This document shows, in pieces, positions 16,553 to 28,006 of a DNA stretch of 64,000 bases. The stretch is from the NCBI GenBank assembly GCA_030653545.1, contig JAURZE010000005.1, positions 62,001-126,000 on the forward strand. Reading direction: 5' to 3'. The position numbers and the translations under genes are program-made. Numbering within the stretch: position 1 is the first letter of the stretch; each line of letters opens with the position of its first letter. The notes under the pieces are model-generated. The model did not search any database. It worked only from the letters and a program-made list of their open reading frames with translations, and had not been told where the DNA came from. Source of the stretch: Nitrospira sp. Lineage in GTDB: Bacteria > Nitrospirota > Nitrospiria > Nitrospirales > Nitrospiraceae.

Positions 16553-16845
16553 TGGAGACCGCCGTGATCGGGTTGACGATTTTCGTGCTGGCCCTCTTTG
16601 CGGGATTCGAAATCATCACGAAAGTGCCGCCTACGCTTCATACGCCGCTCATGTCAGGAGCGAACGCGATTTCGGGGATTACGCTCGTCGGGGCGTTGCT
16701 GGCTGCCGGGTCTGAACGAGACCTGCTCATGAGCGCGCTGGGATTTGTCGCCGTGGTGTTTGCCACGATCAATGTGGTGGGCGGGTTTCTCGTGACGCAT
16801 CGGATGCTGGCGATGTTCAGACCTCGCCCGAAGAGGGTACCATGA
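16549..16845 (+). CDS. pntA2: NAD(P) transhydrogenase, alpha subunit part 2 (membrane segment)
   Basis: The 98-residue product has three hydrophobic spans and the family block PPTLHTPLMSGANAISGI, followed by a basic C-terminus (LAMFRPRPKRVP). It is the membrane part of the alpha subunit and forms the proton channel with PntB. It overlaps both neighbours by 4 bp (ATGA junctions at 16549 and 16842). Confidence 0.92.
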   Translation: MMETAVIGLTIFVLALFAGFEIITKVPPTLHTPLMSGANAISGITLVGALLAAGSERDLLMSALGFVAVVFATINVVGGFLVTHRMLAMFRPRPKRVP

Positions 16846-18230
16846 ACGCCGCATTCATCAATCTCGGCTACCTGGGCGTCTCGGCCCTCTTTGTGGTGGG
16901 GCTGAAGGGGCTCGCGCATCCGCGCACGGCGGCCCGCGGGAATGTGCTGGGCTCGCTGGGAATGTTCCTGGCCGTCGTACTAACGCTGCTCGATCGGCGC
17001 ATTCTGGGCTTCCAGACGATCGTTGTTGCGCTGTTGATTGGATCGGTCATCGGCGCGACGCTGGCGCTGAAGATCCAAATGACCGCCATGCCGCAAATGG
17101 TCGCCGTGCTGAACGGGTTGGGCGGCGGCGCGTCTGTCCTTGTGGCCGGAGCCGGGCTGTTGGAGAACCAGGATGCGGCCATCGCGACGCTCAGCCATTT
17201 CACCGCGGCCGCAGTCGCCTCCGGTGTGATCGGCGCGGTGACGTTCTGGGGCAGTCTCGTGGCCTTTGCCAAGTTGCAAGCCCTCATCACCGAGAGCGCC
17301 GTTCGGTTTCCCGGCCAATACGCGATCAACGCCGGACTGGCCATCGCCGCTGGGGGACTTGGACTCTGGCTGTTGCTGACACCTGAACCTCATGCCGCCT
17401 ACTGGCTCGTCGTGGCCGTCTCGTCGTTGCTCGGCCTGTTGCTCGTGCTGCCGGTCGGTGGGGCCGACATGCCGGTGATCATCGCCTTGCTCAATTCCTG
17501 CTCCGGGCTGGCCGCTGCTGCGACAGGCTTTGTGCTCAACAACAACGTGTTGATTATTGCCGGGTCGCTGGTGGGCGCGTCGGGATTCATTCTCACCCAG
17601 ATCATGTGTCGGGCGATGAACCGATCGCTTCTGGACGTGATGGTTGGATTCGCTCCGCCTGCGCCGAAGGGCCGGGTGGATGCAGACCTCTACGCGGGTC
17701 GAGTGAAGACCGGCTCGCCGGAAGAAGTCGCCTGGCTCTTCGATGCCGCGCGCCGGGTGGTGATCGTGCCTGGTTATGGGATGGCCGTCTCCCAGGCCCA
17801 GCATAGCGTGGCGCACCTCGCCGAACTGTTGCGTGGCCGTGGCATCGAGGTCGAATTCGCCATCCATCCGGTGGCCGGACGCATGCCTGGGCATATGAAC
17901 GTGCTGCTCGCGGAGGCGAATGTCCCCTACGAGTTGCTGAAAGATCTCGACGAAAGCAATCCCACGTTTGAGCAGACGGATGTGGCGCTCGTCATCGGGG
18001 CCAACGACGTGGTCAATCCGCTGGCACGAACCGACCCCACGAGCCCCCTCGCGGGCATGCCGATCCTCGATGTGGACAAGGCGCGGACGGTCGTGGTGAT
18101 CAAGCGCAGCCTGAGTCCGGGTTTTGCGGGCATTCCCAATCCGTTGTTCGCCGCCGACAAGACGATCATGCTGTTCGGCGACGGCCGAGCGATGGTGCAA
18201 GCGGTGCTGAAAGTGTTGAGGGAAGGCTGA
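16842..18230 (+). CDS. pntB: NAD(P) transhydrogenase, beta subunit
   Basis: The 462-residue protein has about eight to nine membrane spans (residues 1-265) followed by the NADP(H)-binding domain III. Domain III shows the canonical motifs GYGMAVSQAQHSVAHL, GRMPGHMNVLLAEANVPYE, IGANDVVNP and KRSLSPGFAGIPNPLF. With the two alpha polypeptides it forms a complete proton-translocating transhydrogenase in the cytoplasmic membrane. A 28-bp gap separates it from hydG. All of the expected catalytic blocks are intact, so the enzyme is probably functional. Confidence 0.94.
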   Translation: MNAAFINLGYLGVSALFVVGLKGLAHPRTAARGNVLGSLGMFLAVVLTLLDRRILGFQTIVVALLIGSVIGATLALKIQMTAMPQMVAVLNGLGGGASVLVAGAGLLENQDAAIATLSHFTAAAVASGVIGAVTFWGSLVAFAKLQALITESAVRFPGQYAINAGLAIAAGGLGLWLLLTPEPHAAYWLVVAVSSLLGLLLVLPVGGADMPVIIALLNSCSGLAAAATGFVLNNNVLIIAGSLVGASGFILTQIMCRAMNRSLLDVMVGFAPPAPKGRVDADLYAGRVKTGSPEEVAWLFDAARRVVIVPGYGMAVSQAQHSVAHLAELLRGRGIEVEFAIHPVAGRMPGHMNVLLAEANVPYELLKDLDESNPTFEQTDVALVIGANDVVNPLARTDPTSPLAGMPILDVDKARTVVVIKRSLSPGFAGIPNPLFAADKTIMLFGDGRAMVQAVLKVLREG

Positions 18231-22370: not shown

Positions 22371-24701
22371 ATGAAACAAGACATCATTGTTCGCCTGCGT
22401 GTCACCGTGGAGGGAACGGTCCAGGGGGTTGGATTCAGGCCGTTCACTTTCCGTGTCGCGCAACAACTTGGCGTGGCCGGGTGGATCACAAACAGCTCTT
22501 GTGGTGCGCTGCTGGAACTGGAGGGGCCGGTTGGTGCCGTGGAGACATTTCTCGTGCGCCTGCAGACGGAAGCGCCAGCGACAGCGAAGGTCGATCGGCT
22601 GACCGTAGAGCCGGCGAGCCCGATGGGAGAGACTGTCTTCGGGATTCGAGACAGTGAAGGCGCGGGTGCGCGGCGCCTGGTGGTGCCGCCCGATCTCGCG
22701 ATCTGTGCCGATTGCCTGCGTGAGCTGAGCGATCCAATGGATCGGCGCTATCGCTATCCTTTTCTCACCTGTACCCAATGTGGCCCACGCGTCAGCCTCA
22801 TCACGGACATTCCCTATGATCGCGCCAACACCACGATGAGCCGGTTCGAGCTCTGCATGAGCTGTCGAGTCGAGTACGAAGATCCGACGAACCGTCGCTT
22901 CCATGCCGAACCGATCGCCTGTCCGGCTTGTGGCCCTCGGTTGGCCTTGTGGGATGTTCAGGGACACGAGGTGGCTCGTGAACAGGAAGCTTTGCAGCAG
23001 GCCTGCGAGATCATTCGACAGGGTGGGATTGTTGCGGTCAAAGGAATCGGCGGATTTCAGCTGTGGGTGGATGCCTGCTCGGATACAGCCGTGCAACGGT
23101 TGCGCCTCCGCAAGACAAGACCGGACAAACCCTTCGCGGTCTTATTTTCATCTGTTTCCGCGGTACGAGAATCATGCTCTGTTGCTCCGGAAGAAGAAGT
23201 CGTGCTGCTCTCTCCGGGAGCGCCGATTGTGCTGCTGCGGCAGCGCAATCATTCTGGGTTGGCCCCATCGGTGTCCTCCAACACCCCCTTCGTCGGTGCC
23301 ATGGTGCCGTCCAGCCCGCTCCACCATCTGCTGATGACGGAGTGGCAAGGTCCGGCAGTCGCCACCAGCGGCAACCGCTCCGACGAACCCATCGTGATCG
23401 ATGAACAGGAGGCGCTCGTTCGGCTCGCCGGGATCGCGGATGCGTTCCTGGTTCACGATCGAGCGATCGCGCGGCCGGTTGATGATTCAGTCGTGCGTGT
23501 GGTCGAGGGCGAGCAGTTGATCCTCCGGCGAGCGAGGGGCTATGTGCCTCGCTCGATCAGAGTGCAGGCGCCCCTTACGAACGGGAGCGCGATGGTCCCG
23601 ATTCTCGCGGTCGGGGGCCATCTCAAGAACACGATCGCGTTGGCGTATGGCGATCGGGTCATGCTGAGCCAGCACCTTGGCGATCTGTCTACGCTGGAGG
23701 CTTTCGAGGCGTTTCGCCGCGCCGTCGATGATCTGCAACGGCTGCTTGCTGTCCAGCCCCAACTGGTAGCCTGCGATCTTCACCCCGACTATCGATCAAC
23801 CATCTTCGCGCAGGAATTCGCCGAGCGCCACGCGGTCCCGCTCGTTCGGGTGCAACACCATCACGCCCATGTCGCCGCCTGTATGGCCGAGCACAACTTA
23901 GACGGCGAGGTGCTGGGCGTGGCCTGGGACGGGGGGGGCTATGGTTCCGACGGCACGATCTGGGGAGGCGAATTTCTCATCGCGGGGTATCCAGGCTTCA
24001 GGCGTCTCGCCCATCTTCGACCGTTTCGCCTGCCGGGCGGAGAGGCGGCTATGCGCAAACCCTGGCGCTGCGCCTTCTCAGTCCTCTGGGAGACCTATGG
24101 AGAGAAGGGAGCCGTTGAAGCGTGTGCTGCCCGGCAATCAGTGAAAGGGGAAGGCGACGCTCTTGCGGCCCTGCTGCACAGAGGGATTGCCTCACCCTGG
24201 ACCACCAGCATGGGACGACTCTTCGATGCGGTGTCGTCGATTGCTGGCTTGTGTGATGAAGCCAGTTTTGAAGGGCAGGCGGCCATGGCTCTGGAGTTCG
24301 CGGCGGAACGGTATGAAAAGAATGCTCCCGGAGATGAGACGGGCTCCCTGTTCGCTATCACAAGAGGTGAGGACAACCCGGCCATGTGGGTCGCTGACTG
24401 GCGACCGCTGATCGAGTCGCTTATCAAGGAGCGGCGCGAAGGAAGTAGTTCCGAGCGGATCGCGTATCGGTTCCATCTTGCGTTGGCGGATCTGATCGGT
24501 CAGATTGCGGAGCACGCTGCGTTGCCGCGTGTGGTGCTGACCGGCGGATGCTTTCAGAATGTCCTGTTGCTTCGGCTCGCGCGTCGCCGATTAGAGCAAG
24601 CAGGGTTTACCGTCTACAGCCATCGCCAGGTGCCGCCCAACGATGGGGGGCTCTCGCTGGGCCAGGCGGTCGTGGCGGCACACGGGTCCGGTGAGGAGTG
24701 A
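22371..24701 (+). CDS. hypF: Carbamoyltransferase HypF (CN-ligand synthesis)
   Basis: The 776-residue protein has all HypF domains in order: N-terminal acylphosphatase (VEGTVQGVGFRPFTFRVAQ, residues about 10-95), zinc-finger region with CADC, CTQCGP, CMSC and CPACGP (about 112-187), YrdC-like domain (KGIGGFQLWVDA..., about 200-385) and Kae1-like domain with QHHHAHVAACMAE and WDGGGYGSDG (about 495-530). It carbamoylates the HypE C-terminal Cys, using carbamoyl phosphate and ATP. The length is normal. A fossil of the same 3' end is found at 26546-26632, beyond the next gene. Confidence 0.95.
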   Translation: MKQDIIVRLRVTVEGTVQGVGFRPFTFRVAQQLGVAGWITNSSCGALLELEGPVGAVETFLVRLQTEAPATAKVDRLTVEPASPMGETVFGIRDSEGAGARRLVVPPDLAICADCLRELSDPMDRRYRYPFLTCTQCGPRVSLITDIPYDRANTTMSRFELCMSCRVEYEDPTNRRFHAEPIACPACGPRLALWDVQGHEVAREQEALQQACEIIRQGGIVAVKGIGGFQLWVDACSDTAVQRLRLRKTRPDKPFAVLFSSVSAVRESCSVAPEEEVVLLSPGAPIVLLRQRNHSGLAPSVSSNTPFVGAMVPSSPLHHLLMTEWQGPAVATSGNRSDEPIVIDEQEALVRLAGIADAFLVHDRAIARPVDDSVVRVVEGEQLILRRARGYVPRSIRVQAPLTNGSAMVPILAVGGHLKNTIALAYGDRVMLSQHLGDLSTLEAFEAFRRAVDDLQRLLAVQPQLVACDLHPDYRSTIFAQEFAERHAVPLVRVQHHHAHVAACMAEHNLDGEVLGVAWDGGGYGSDGTIWGGEFLIAGYPGFRRLAHLRPFRLPGGEAAMRKPWRCAFSVLWETYGEKGAVEACAARQSVKGEGDALAALLHRGIASPWTTSMGRLFDAVSSIAGLCDEASFEGQAAMALEFAAERYEKNAPGDETGSLFAITRGEDNPAMWVADWRPLIESLIKERREGSSSERIAYRFHLALADLIGQIAEHAALPRVVLTGGCFQNVLLLRLARRRLEQAGFTVYSHRQVPPNDGGLSLGQAVVAAHGSGEE

Positions 24702-24762
24702 AGCATGGGGAGTGAGGAGCGGAAAAGCTTCATGGAAAGTTGGCAGATGTGAGGGATAACAC

Positions 24763-26493
24763 ATGTACCGTCGTGTGATGGCGTTTGACTTTGACGGGAC
24801 GCTTGCCGTGGATGGGGTGGTGCCCCGTGACCTCGAATGCGCACTTGAGCGATGCCGTGCTGCAGGCTATGCGCTGTTTCTTGTCACGGGCCGGCGCTTT
24901 GAGACCGTCCCACTTGGCCGCCTGGGCGACGTGTTCACCGGTGTGGTGTGGGAGAATGGCGCAGTCTTAGTGCATACCGCCACCGGTGAGGTCTATCTGC
25001 CATTCGGGCAGCTCGAGGAACGCCTCGTGAAAGCGCTTGAGGACGCTGAGATTCCCCTCGAACGGGGATTGGCCATTGCGGCGACCTGGGTGCCGCACGA
25101 CCAAGAAGTGTGGCGCGTGCTCAGCGCCCACGGTGGCGGCGCAGCGGTCGAGTATAACAAAGGGGCGGTGATGGTGCTGCCCTCTGGAGCGGCGAAGGGG
25201 ACGGGCTTAGAGCGACTCCTCACCATCTGCGGGTTCTCAGCGCACAATTTGGCGGCGTTCGGTGATGCCGAGAACGATGTCTCGATGCTCCGGCTGGCCG
25301 AAATCGGGGTAGTCGTGGGGGACGCCGTGCCGGCGGTTCAGGAGATGGCCGATGTCGTCGCGTCTCGTCCGGGGCCGGCAGGCGTGCTGGAAATTCTGGA
25401 CCGCTACCCCTTGGCCGGTCAATATCTCGACGTGCCCTTGCGCCGGGAGCGGCGCATTGTGATCGGGCGGGATAAGGCGAACATCGAGGTGTCACTGCCG
25501 GGGTCTCGTCTCGCTGGGCGAAACCTTGGGGTGTTCGGGGACTCAGGCACAGGCAAGTCCTGGGTGGTTGGCCTCCTGGCCGAAGGGCTGCACCACGAGG
25601 AGTATCAGGTCCTGCTGGTGGACCCTGAAGGAGACTTCCGCGGTCTTCGGGCGCTCCCGCGATTTGTGGCTCTAGAGGGAGATCGTGTATCCATGCCGGT
25701 CCCGTCGGCCGTGGTGGCCTTGCTGGAAACTGGGAGCGTGTCGGTGGTGTTGGATCTCAGCCGATATCCCGTCACCTTGCGCATTCCGTACGTGGCCGAG
25801 TTGGTGCGCGCGCTCCGTCCGTTGCGGGAGCGCAAGTACCGGCCCCATTGGATTGTCTTGGACGAAGCCCAACAGCTGTTCCCGCCGAACGGGGGAGAGG
25901 CGGCGGACGCGGTGGCCCCTCTGTTGGAACAAGGTGGATGGGCCGTCGTTTCGTATCGACCTGATCGTCTTGATCCGAGGGTGCTCCGTTCAGTGCACCA
26001 TTGCCTGGCGACTCGACTGGTTGAGCCTGAAGCGGTCCGGGCGGTGCAAGAGCATTGTGGGGAGTGCGGGCTTGGAGAGGTGAACTTCGCGGAGATTCCT
26101 CCCGGCGAGATACTCTTGTGTGACGGCCAAGTGGCCCGCTTGCGACCGGCTCTCCGCCGGGTCCCGCATATCAGGCACTTCTACAAGTATCTCGAGGGGC
26201 CGCTGCCTCCTGGCAAGCGCTTCTGGTTTCGGGACGCGCAGGCGGGTGTGGGGCAGGAAGCGGCCAGCCTGTATGAGTTCGTACAGCTCATCCCGACGGT
26301 GCCGTGTGCAAGTTTGGAGTATCACGACCGTCGAGAGGATTTCTCACGGTGGGCTGAAGGGGCCCTTGGCGATGCAGATCTTGCCGCACGCCTGCGGAAG
26401 CTGGCGCATCGGCAGCTCACAGGGAAGACGCTCCGGGAGGCCCTCCGGCAGACGGTGGCGGTGCGGTACGAGGAGCTGAATGCGCTACGCTAA
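24763..26493 (+). CDS. HAD-family phosphatase fused to a HerA/DUF87-type P-loop ATPase
   Basis: This 576-residue protein joins two enzymes. Residues 1-210 form a Cof/sucrose-phosphatase-like HAD domain: motif I DFDGTL (8-13), LVTGRR, a cap region and the motif IV GDAENDVSML (166-175). Residues about 225-480 form a P-loop ATPase with Walker A GDSGTGKS (259-266), LLVDPEGDF and Walker B WIVLDEAQQL (near 363), resembling the HerA/VirB4-like DUF87 core. The C-terminal about 100 residues (RVPHIRHFYKYLEG...) are helical and unrecognised. It lies between hypF and hypC in the same orientation, 61 bp after hypF. The substrate is unknown; the location suggests co-expression with hydrogenase maturation, but this may be accidental. 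Confidence 0.8.
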   Translation: MYRRVMAFDFDGTLAVDGVVPRDLECALERCRAAGYALFLVTGRRFETVPLGRLGDVFTGVVWENGAVLVHTATGEVYLPFGQLEERLVKALEDAEIPLERGLAIAATWVPHDQEVWRVLSAHGGGAAVEYNKGAVMVLPSGAAKGTGLERLLTICGFSAHNLAAFGDAENDVSMLRLAEIGVVVGDAVPAVQEMADVVASRPGPAGVLEILDRYPLAGQYLDVPLRRERRIVIGRDKANIEVSLPGSRLAGRNLGVFGDSGTGKSWVVGLLAEGLHHEEYQVLLVDPEGDFRGLRALPRFVALEGDRVSMPVPSAVVALLETGSVSVVLDLSRYPVTLRIPYVAELVRALRPLRERKYRPHWIVLDEAQQLFPPNGGEAADAVAPLLEQGGWAVVSYRPDRLDPRVLRSVHHCLATRLVEPEAVRAVQEHCGECGLGEVNFAEIPPGEILLCDGQVARLRPALRRVPHIRHFYKYLEGPLPPGKRFWFRDAQAGVGQEAASLYEFVQLIPTVPCASLEYHDRREDFSRWAEGALGDADLAARLRKLAHRQLTGKTLREALRQTVAVRYEELNALR

Positions 26494-26545
26494 GTGGTCA
26501 CGACAAGAAGACCACACGAGTCATGCCTGCTCGCCTCTCCCGAGT

Positions 26546-26632
26546 TCACGTCGCCAGGTGCCGCCCAATGACGTGGGACTCTCTCTTGGACGGGCGGTCG
26601 TGACGGCGGCTCATTTTTCAAACAGAAGGTAA
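26546..26632 (+). pseudogene. hypF: Fossil 3' end of a second hypF copy
   Basis: This frame reads RRQVPPNDVGLSLGRAVVT then AAHFSNRR and stops with TAA at 26630. It matches the last residues of intact HypF (HRQVPPNDGGLSLGQAVVA) at 24621-24701, with about 80% identical bases over 60. It sits directly before hypC. The simplest reading is that hypF once adjoined hypC, and that the present hypF plus the HAD-ATPase gene came in by recombination or tandem duplication, leaving this end behind. Confidence 0.75.
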
Positions 26633-26637
26633 TAGGA

Positions 26638-26886
26638 ATGTGCTTAGCGGTTCCGGGGCAAGTCCTCAGTATCGCGGATGACCAACTCCGGACCGCGACG
26701 GTATCCTTCGGCGGCACCATGAAAGAGGTCTCGCTTGCGCTCGTGCCAGAAGCGGATGTCGGAGACTATGTGATCGTGCATGTGGGATTTGCCATCAGCA
26801 AACTGGATGAGGCGGCGGCGCGACGAACTTTAGAATTGATGGCGCAGCTCGATGGGCGAGAGGCGAGAGGCCATGAAATACGTTGA
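26638..26886 (+). CDS. hypC: Hydrogenase assembly chaperone HypC/HupF
   Basis: The 82-residue protein starts with [12 protein letters not shown], the diagnostic N-terminus in which Cys2 binds the Fe(CN)2CO unit and the large-subunit precursor. The rest ([40 protein letters not shown]) is a typical OB-like HypC. The GAAGG before its ATG lies within the hypF fossil. It overlaps the wider frame of hypD, so hypCD are coupled. Confidence 0.94.
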
Positions 26887-28006
26887 CGAGTACCGAGATC
26901 GCACACTTGCGGCGACGTTAGCGGATCGCATCACGCAGATGGTGCGCCGTCCCTGGACGATCATGGAAGTCTGCGGCGGGCAAACCCATGCGATTGTGCG
27001 GTTCGGTCTCGATGCCTTGTTGCCGCCGAACCTCACCCTGGTGCATGGGCCGGGCTGTCCCGTCTGTGTTACGCCGATCGGCTTAATCGACCAGGCGCTC
27101 CAACTCGCGTCGTTGCCGCGCGTGATCTTCTGCTCTTTCGGGGACATGCTGCGCGTGCCTGGCTCGCAGGGGGATCTGTTCGGCGTCAAGGCGGCGGGGG
27201 GAGATGTCCGCATCGTCTATTCGCCGCTGGATGCGTTGGAGCTAGCCCGCGCGAACCCTGATCGCGAGGTCGTGTGTTTTGCGGTGGGTTTCGAGACGAC
27301 TGCGCCGGCCTATGCGATGGCGGCGATCCAGGCGCGGCGCCTAGGTCTCACCAACTTCAGTCTGCTCGCGGCCCATGTGCTCGTGCCGCCGGCGATGGAA
27401 GCCATTCTGTCCGCTCCCGGCTGTCTCGTGCAGGGTTTTCTGGCGGCCGGTCATGTCTGTACGGTCATGGGCTATGAAGAGTACGAAGACCTGGCGCGAC
27501 GCTATCGCGTGCCCATCGTGGTCACGGGGTTTGAGCCGATCGACATCCTGGAAGGGATTGCGATGCTGGTTCGCCAATTGGAAGAAGGACGGGCAGTCGT
27601 CGAGAACCAGTACGCCAGGTCGGTGCGTCGCGAGGGCAACGTGGCGGCGCAAGCGGCCGTGCGAGAAGTCTTCGAACCAACGCTGCGGGCCTGGCGTGGC
27701 ATCGGCGACATTCCTCAGAGCGGCCTGAGGCTCACGCCGGCCTATGCCGGCTTCGATGCGGCGGTGCGATTTCGTGACGCGCTCGCTCAAGCCGGTTCGG
27801 TGGGCGCAGAAGATCCCGACTGTCGGAGCGGTCTGGTGTTGCAAGGCTTGCTCAAGCCGCCGGACTGCCCGGCCTTCGCCACGCGCTGCACGCCGGAGCG
27901 GCCATTAGGCGCGCCGATGGTGTCCAGCGAAGGGGCCTGCGCGGCCTATTATCGCTATAGACGGGGTGCGGGGCATGGGGCGAGAGGCGAGAGGCAATCG
28001 GCATAG
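26873..28006 (+). CDS. hypD: Hydrogenase formation protein HypD
   Basis: The 377-residue protein has the conserved Cys motifs of Hyp[26 protein letters not shown] and the C-terminal 4Fe-4S region ([19 protein letters not shown] then C...C). It holds the iron and assembles the CN and CO ligands with HypC and HypE. I chose the ATG at 26873 ([10 protein letters not shown]) because GAGAGG precedes it; an ATG at 26852 would add seven residues. It overlaps hypC by 14 bp. Confidence 0.94.

Follow-up and report, generated by a model that had tools for sequence, protein, structure and literature searches.

The gene that lies between hypF and hypC in the window (the whole stretch of 64,000 nucleotides of DNA analysed here) codes for a protein of 576 residues with three domains, i.e., a HAD phosphatase, a HerA-like ATPase and a single OrfY/DUF5752 repeat. 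Proteins with these three domains are widespread but uncharacterised, and the one in the window belongs to a branch of them found in Nitrospirota. We propose, at roughly even chances, that it is an ATP-controlled small-molecule phosphatase with an OrfY-type docking module, which travels as a passenger in the hyp operon.

Domain Structure and Conservation of the Protein

The gene is an uninterrupted frame from ATG to stop, in which the following features were located:

24763-26493, + strand: gene of the 576-aa HAD-HerA-OrfY protein; single ORF, dN/dS 0.11-0.13
24763-25407, + strand: HAD-IIB (Cof/SPP-like) phosphatase domain, residues 1-215; Hydrolase_3 and TIGR01484 matches, conserved residues, all catalytic motifs present
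25444-26193, + strand: HerA-like ATPase core, residues 228-477; Pfam DUF87 match (1.7e-10) and HerA fold match
25537-25560, + strand: Walker A motif GDSGTGKS (G259-S266); G259, G264, K265 and S266 invariant
25849-25866, + strand: Walker B motif WIVLDE; E368 invariant, D367 either D or E
26218-26490, + strand: single OrfY/DUF5752 repeat; profile matches, separate model and match to 4cso

The three domains were recognised by their sequences, and the ATPase and C-terminal parts also by their predicted folds. An earlier note on this DNA had described a single 576-residue protein with two domains, and the single ORF with its complete motifs bears this out: the HAD domain and the HerA-type ATPase had been named rightly, whereas a third domain, formed by the last ~92 residues (DUF5752/OrfY), had been overlooked. 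A fusion of two separate proteins by a sequencing error, also considered in that note, was ruled out, since many genomes of Nitrospirota, as well as plasmid records unrelated to them, contain the same single full-length frame. As judged from the dN/dS of about 0.11-0.13 obtained against three relatives, the gene is under purifying selection. One window-branch copy (L012, genome G012) is in pieces and carries an in-frame TGA, which indicates that some genomes have lost the gene.

Residues 1-215 matched Pfam Hydrolase_3 at 1.9e-23 and TIGR01484 with 61.8 bits (cut-off 41.8); equivalog cut-offs were not reached by this part in the HAD profile search. The HAD-IIB set of DxDxT, the T of motif II, the K of motif III and GDxxND of motif IV is complete, and D9, D11, T13, T42, K145, D168 and D172 are invariant in 26 orthologues, so that the intact catalytic start and motif IV reported earlier were confirmed. 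These catalytic residues, as well as the Walker residues, are retained in both branches of the family. Since the catalytic residues are conserved, the HAD domain is likely to be catalytically competent. The model of the whole protein (mean pLDDT 67.9) is adequate for fold comparison in the ATPase part and poor in the HAD part, and therefore the HAD fold rests on sequence. Our best guess for the substrate class is a sugar phosphate. Trehalose-6-phosphate (T6P) phosphatase as the sole role is unlikely, because the genome has otsB and the protein shows no Trehalose_PPase match in Pfam. A stand-alone HAD gene on a Nostoc plasmid (L147, 6001-6666) is 58% identical to the HAD region of a protein from the second branch, and no HerA-like gene is present in the nearby annotation; the occurrence of such a close relative on its own suggests that the domain can work as a separate enzyme.

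The ATPase core matched DUF87 with 41.8 bits (cut-off 23.2), and the corresponding part of the model aligned with HerA over 241 residues with a Z score of 24.4 and an rmsd of 2.6. G259, G264, K265, S266 and E368 are the same in all 26 orthologues, and D367 is replaced by E in five of them. Profile, fold and conserved residues thus agree with the earlier description of a HerA-like ATPase with intact Walker A and B motifs. The SQRP motif of the one DUF87 protein used for comparison reads SYRP, SFRP or, mostly, TVHP in the family, the Gln after Walker B being Y, F, V or I in 20 of 20 members. From what is generally known of the superfamily, a change in this motif may alter the coupling of ATP hydrolysis. 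At 26056-26121, a CxxC motif plus a third Cys (C432, C435 and C453) are invariant in 26 window-branch proteins, and C435 and C453 are missing from the second branch; the three Cys could possibly form a metal or redox site.

The C-terminus matched Pfam DUF5752 at 2.5e-5 (24.2 bits, cut-off 23) and, in a profile search, the PDB entry 4cso ('OrfY protein, transcription factor') with an E-value of 2.1e-11. Profile-profile comparison with stand-alone DUF5752 gave a probability of 96% and an E-value of 3.8e-9. The structure of this part, whose prediction the earlier note had proposed, was modelled separately with a pLDDT of 93.8, and its best match is again 4cso (Z 11.8, rmsd 2.1, 94 residues; 5.7 for the runner-up). 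A Foldseek search of this model by itself did not bring up 4cso at E-values up to 10; it was found by the VIA realignment. A viral fold search with the C-terminus gave no match below an E-value of 0.001, and no paper on DUF5752, HAD-HerA fusions or OrfY was found in the literature searched.

Position in the hyp Cluster

The neighbours of the gene in the window are those of a NiFe hydrogenase together with hypA, F, C, D and E (Pfam), and the reported location between hypF and hypC proved right. A gene for an NAD(P) transhydrogenase beta subunit (16842-18230) is found directly 5' of the hydrogenase genes. The features flanking the gene are:

22371-24701, + strand: hypF (Pfam); last ~130 nt probably of the type brought with the inserted gene
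26552-26637, + strand: remainder of a second hypF 3' end that leads into hypC (insertion scar); 79/86 identical to G310
26638-26886, + strand: hypC (Pfam HupF_HypC, 9.6e-29)

Neighbours were tabulated, as the earlier note had suggested, for the loci read, and the orthologues were found mostly away from hyp genes. Of the 30 loci with hypF that were read in the family, hypC follows hypF directly in 25, and the gene for the 576-aa protein lies between them in the remaining five (the window, G362, G141, G352 and G172); in the loci fetched with the protein from genome contigs, hyp genes stand alongside only in L021 and L022. The constant company of hyp genes expected of a hydrogenase maturation factor was thus not observed.

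Within the spacer between the gene and hypC, a stretch of 86 nt corresponds to the end of hypF and the hypC junction of genome G310, with 79 of 86 positions identical. In G310, this junction is uninterrupted and the orthologue sits on a different contig. The hypF remnant is also present in G362 (84/89 by alignment) and, in a decayed form, in G141 (score 23 versus at most 15 for shuffles), and none above shuffles was found in G172 and G352. The hypF genes of the window and G310 are 87-95% identical at nt 1201-2200 and 73% identical in the last 130 nt. Because the remnant matches an uninterrupted junction, it is well supported that, in one group of genomes, the gene was inserted between hypF and hypC by recombination and that part of the hypF tail was left there. 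Read most simply, these comparisons mean that the hypF tail now in place arrived together with the gene, and that the former one stayed behind. In the tree, the 17 members outside hyp clusters form one group with a support of 100/100, which is compatible with, but does not prove, a single arrival of the gene in the hyp cluster. With a scar still legible beside the gene, the earlier suggestion that it had been captured in the operon holds.

Branches of the Family and Their Neighbourhoods

The HAD-HerA-OrfY family consists of two branches that are clearly separate in the tree. Members of the window branch are 64-87% identical to the window protein and were found only in Nitrospirota, mostly in the same family. 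Those of the second branch have the identical domain order and 29-36% identity to the window protein, and they occur in other Nitrospirota and on large replicons of Sinorhizobium, Aminobacter, Agrobacterium, Caballeronia, Paraburkholderia, Synechococcus and Nonomuraea, so that related full-length proteins are known from Proteobacteria, Cyanobacteria and Actinobacteria. One Nitrospirota member of this branch is 39-51% identical to the non-Nitrospirota ones over nearly the whole length. The earlier note had asked whether homologues occur in unrelated contexts with a known role: the contexts are indeed unrelated, but no known role was found.

In ten second-branch loci of Nitrospirota, several of which come from closely related genomes and do not count as independent, we found a long catalase in five, Ku, a TreZ-like amylase and a debranching enzyme together in three, a Rieske-FAD oxidoreductase in three and a DUF5752-TreT pair in one. 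Elsewhere, the second-branch gene adjoins GT4, amylo-glucosidase and T6P synthase genes in Aminobacter, two GT4 genes in Caballeronia and a universal stress protein gene in Agrobacterium; no trehalose gene was present in the stretches read of the Sinorhizobium and Synechococcus loci. Stress or trehalose neighbours were seen in none of the 26 non-hyp loci of the window branch. The presence of otsA and otsB in the window genome, and the absence of TreT from it, likewise weigh against the function proposed below. From these neighbourhoods, a stress or sugar role is supported for some members of the second branch. To the window protein it is carried over by inference, since its own branch is without such neighbours and only 29-36% identical to the other.

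The full-length DUF5752 proteins point to trehalose as well. In a set of 148 genomes of Nitrospirota, full-length DUF5752 genes are followed downstream by the trehalose synthase gene TreT on the same strand in 46 of 47 cases (within 400 bp in 34 of the 46; examples are L046-L055, L088 and L100), and TreT is present in all 43 Nitrospirota genomes with a full-length DUF5752. TreS often stands between the two genes.

Possible Functions

We infer the substrate and role of the protein as follows. The HAD domain would hydrolyse a metabolite of small size that carries a phosphate, the likeliest candidate being a sugar phosphate from stress or compatible-solute metabolism; ATP bound by the HerA core would switch or assemble the protein, and the OrfY-like module would dock it to partner enzymes. 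The gene would ride on the hyp transcript, probably without a role in hydrogenase maturation. A wider proposal, which we put forward tentatively and hold to be rather doubtful, is that a HerA-type ATPase was turned from nucleic acids to the ATP-dependent control of a phosphatase acting on metabolites, with the OrfY repeat as its link to the trehalose/compatible-solute machinery; the result would be a stress protein of three domains that at least four phyla have in common.

Three other functions were weighed against the ATP-controlled phosphatase. The protein might be mainly a regulator, in which the OrfY-like module targets transcription or a partner and the HAD and ATPase parts serve as ligand sensors instead of forming an active enzyme. 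The C-terminal kinship to OrfY, a putative transcription factor by its name in the PDB record, and the changed SQRP motif speak for it; against it, none of the seven catalytic residues of the HAD domain varies among the 26 orthologues, as for a working phosphatase. We consider this reading unlikely. We consider it very unlikely that the protein is a HerA-type nucleic-acid translocase, perhaps in a defence system, whose HAD domain would serve as a phosphatase in end processing or on nucleotides. The best fold matches are the SIR2-HerA and HerA-DUF4297 defence complexes and PADLOC gave a mad8 match (8e-11), yet this match is confined to the ATPase part, the SQRP Gln is replaced in all 20 members, and the HAD part resembles small-molecule phosphatases. 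The fusion is, moreover, absent from phage records and viral contigs, and among the neighbours in the loci read we recognised no partner gene of a defence system. The mobile or defence gene envisaged in the earlier note is not supported.

Least probable of all, and in our view highly improbable, is a factor for hydrogenase maturation or regulation in the hypF-hypC group, for example one that senses ATP or a phosphorylated intermediate. The gene shares its strand with hypF and hypC with short gaps, it is retained in five genomes under purifying selection, and no promoter-like site was found on the + strand within 24400-26900, so that cotranscription is possible. Nevertheless, the gene is absent from 25 of the 30 hypF loci, the protein is conserved also far from hyp genes, where most orthologues lie, and the recombination scar points to a late entry; the maturation accessory suggested earlier is not borne out by these data. 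A false lead, that of a new hydrogenase factor, is thereby removed, and a testable one takes its place, namely a HAD-HerA-OrfY protein that is conserved and unstudied, with some members of its family adjoining stress and trehalose genes. Furthermore, the locus is a legible example of a bystander gene entering an operon, and DUF5752 is tied to TreT in Nitrospirota.

Comparison with Known Systems

With Cof-type HAD-IIB phosphatases such as YidA, YhaX and the archaeal phosphoglycolate phosphatase, the window protein has the catalytic motif set and the domain match in common; these are single-domain proteins, whereas here an ATPase and an OrfY repeat follow in the same chain. HerA and the FtsK-HerA ATPases share with it the fold (Z 24.4) and the Walker motifs. 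The window protein differs from them in the replaced SQRP Gln and in its N-terminal HAD domain; the likeness described here is one of sequence and fold. The repeat of OrfY from Thermoproteus tenax (PDB 4cso) and DUF5752 is common to both sides by profile and fold, but OrfY and DUF5752 are stand-alone proteins of two repeats, while the window protein has one repeat that ends a HAD-ATPase fusion. Closest in architecture are the unstudied proteins annotated as 'HAD-IIB family hydrolase' in Sinorhizobium, Aminobacter, Synechococcus and others, in which the three domains follow one another in the same way along almost the entire protein; they differ from the window protein by an identity of 29-36% and by lacking the Cys432/435/453 set, and several of them have stress or sugar genes as neighbours.
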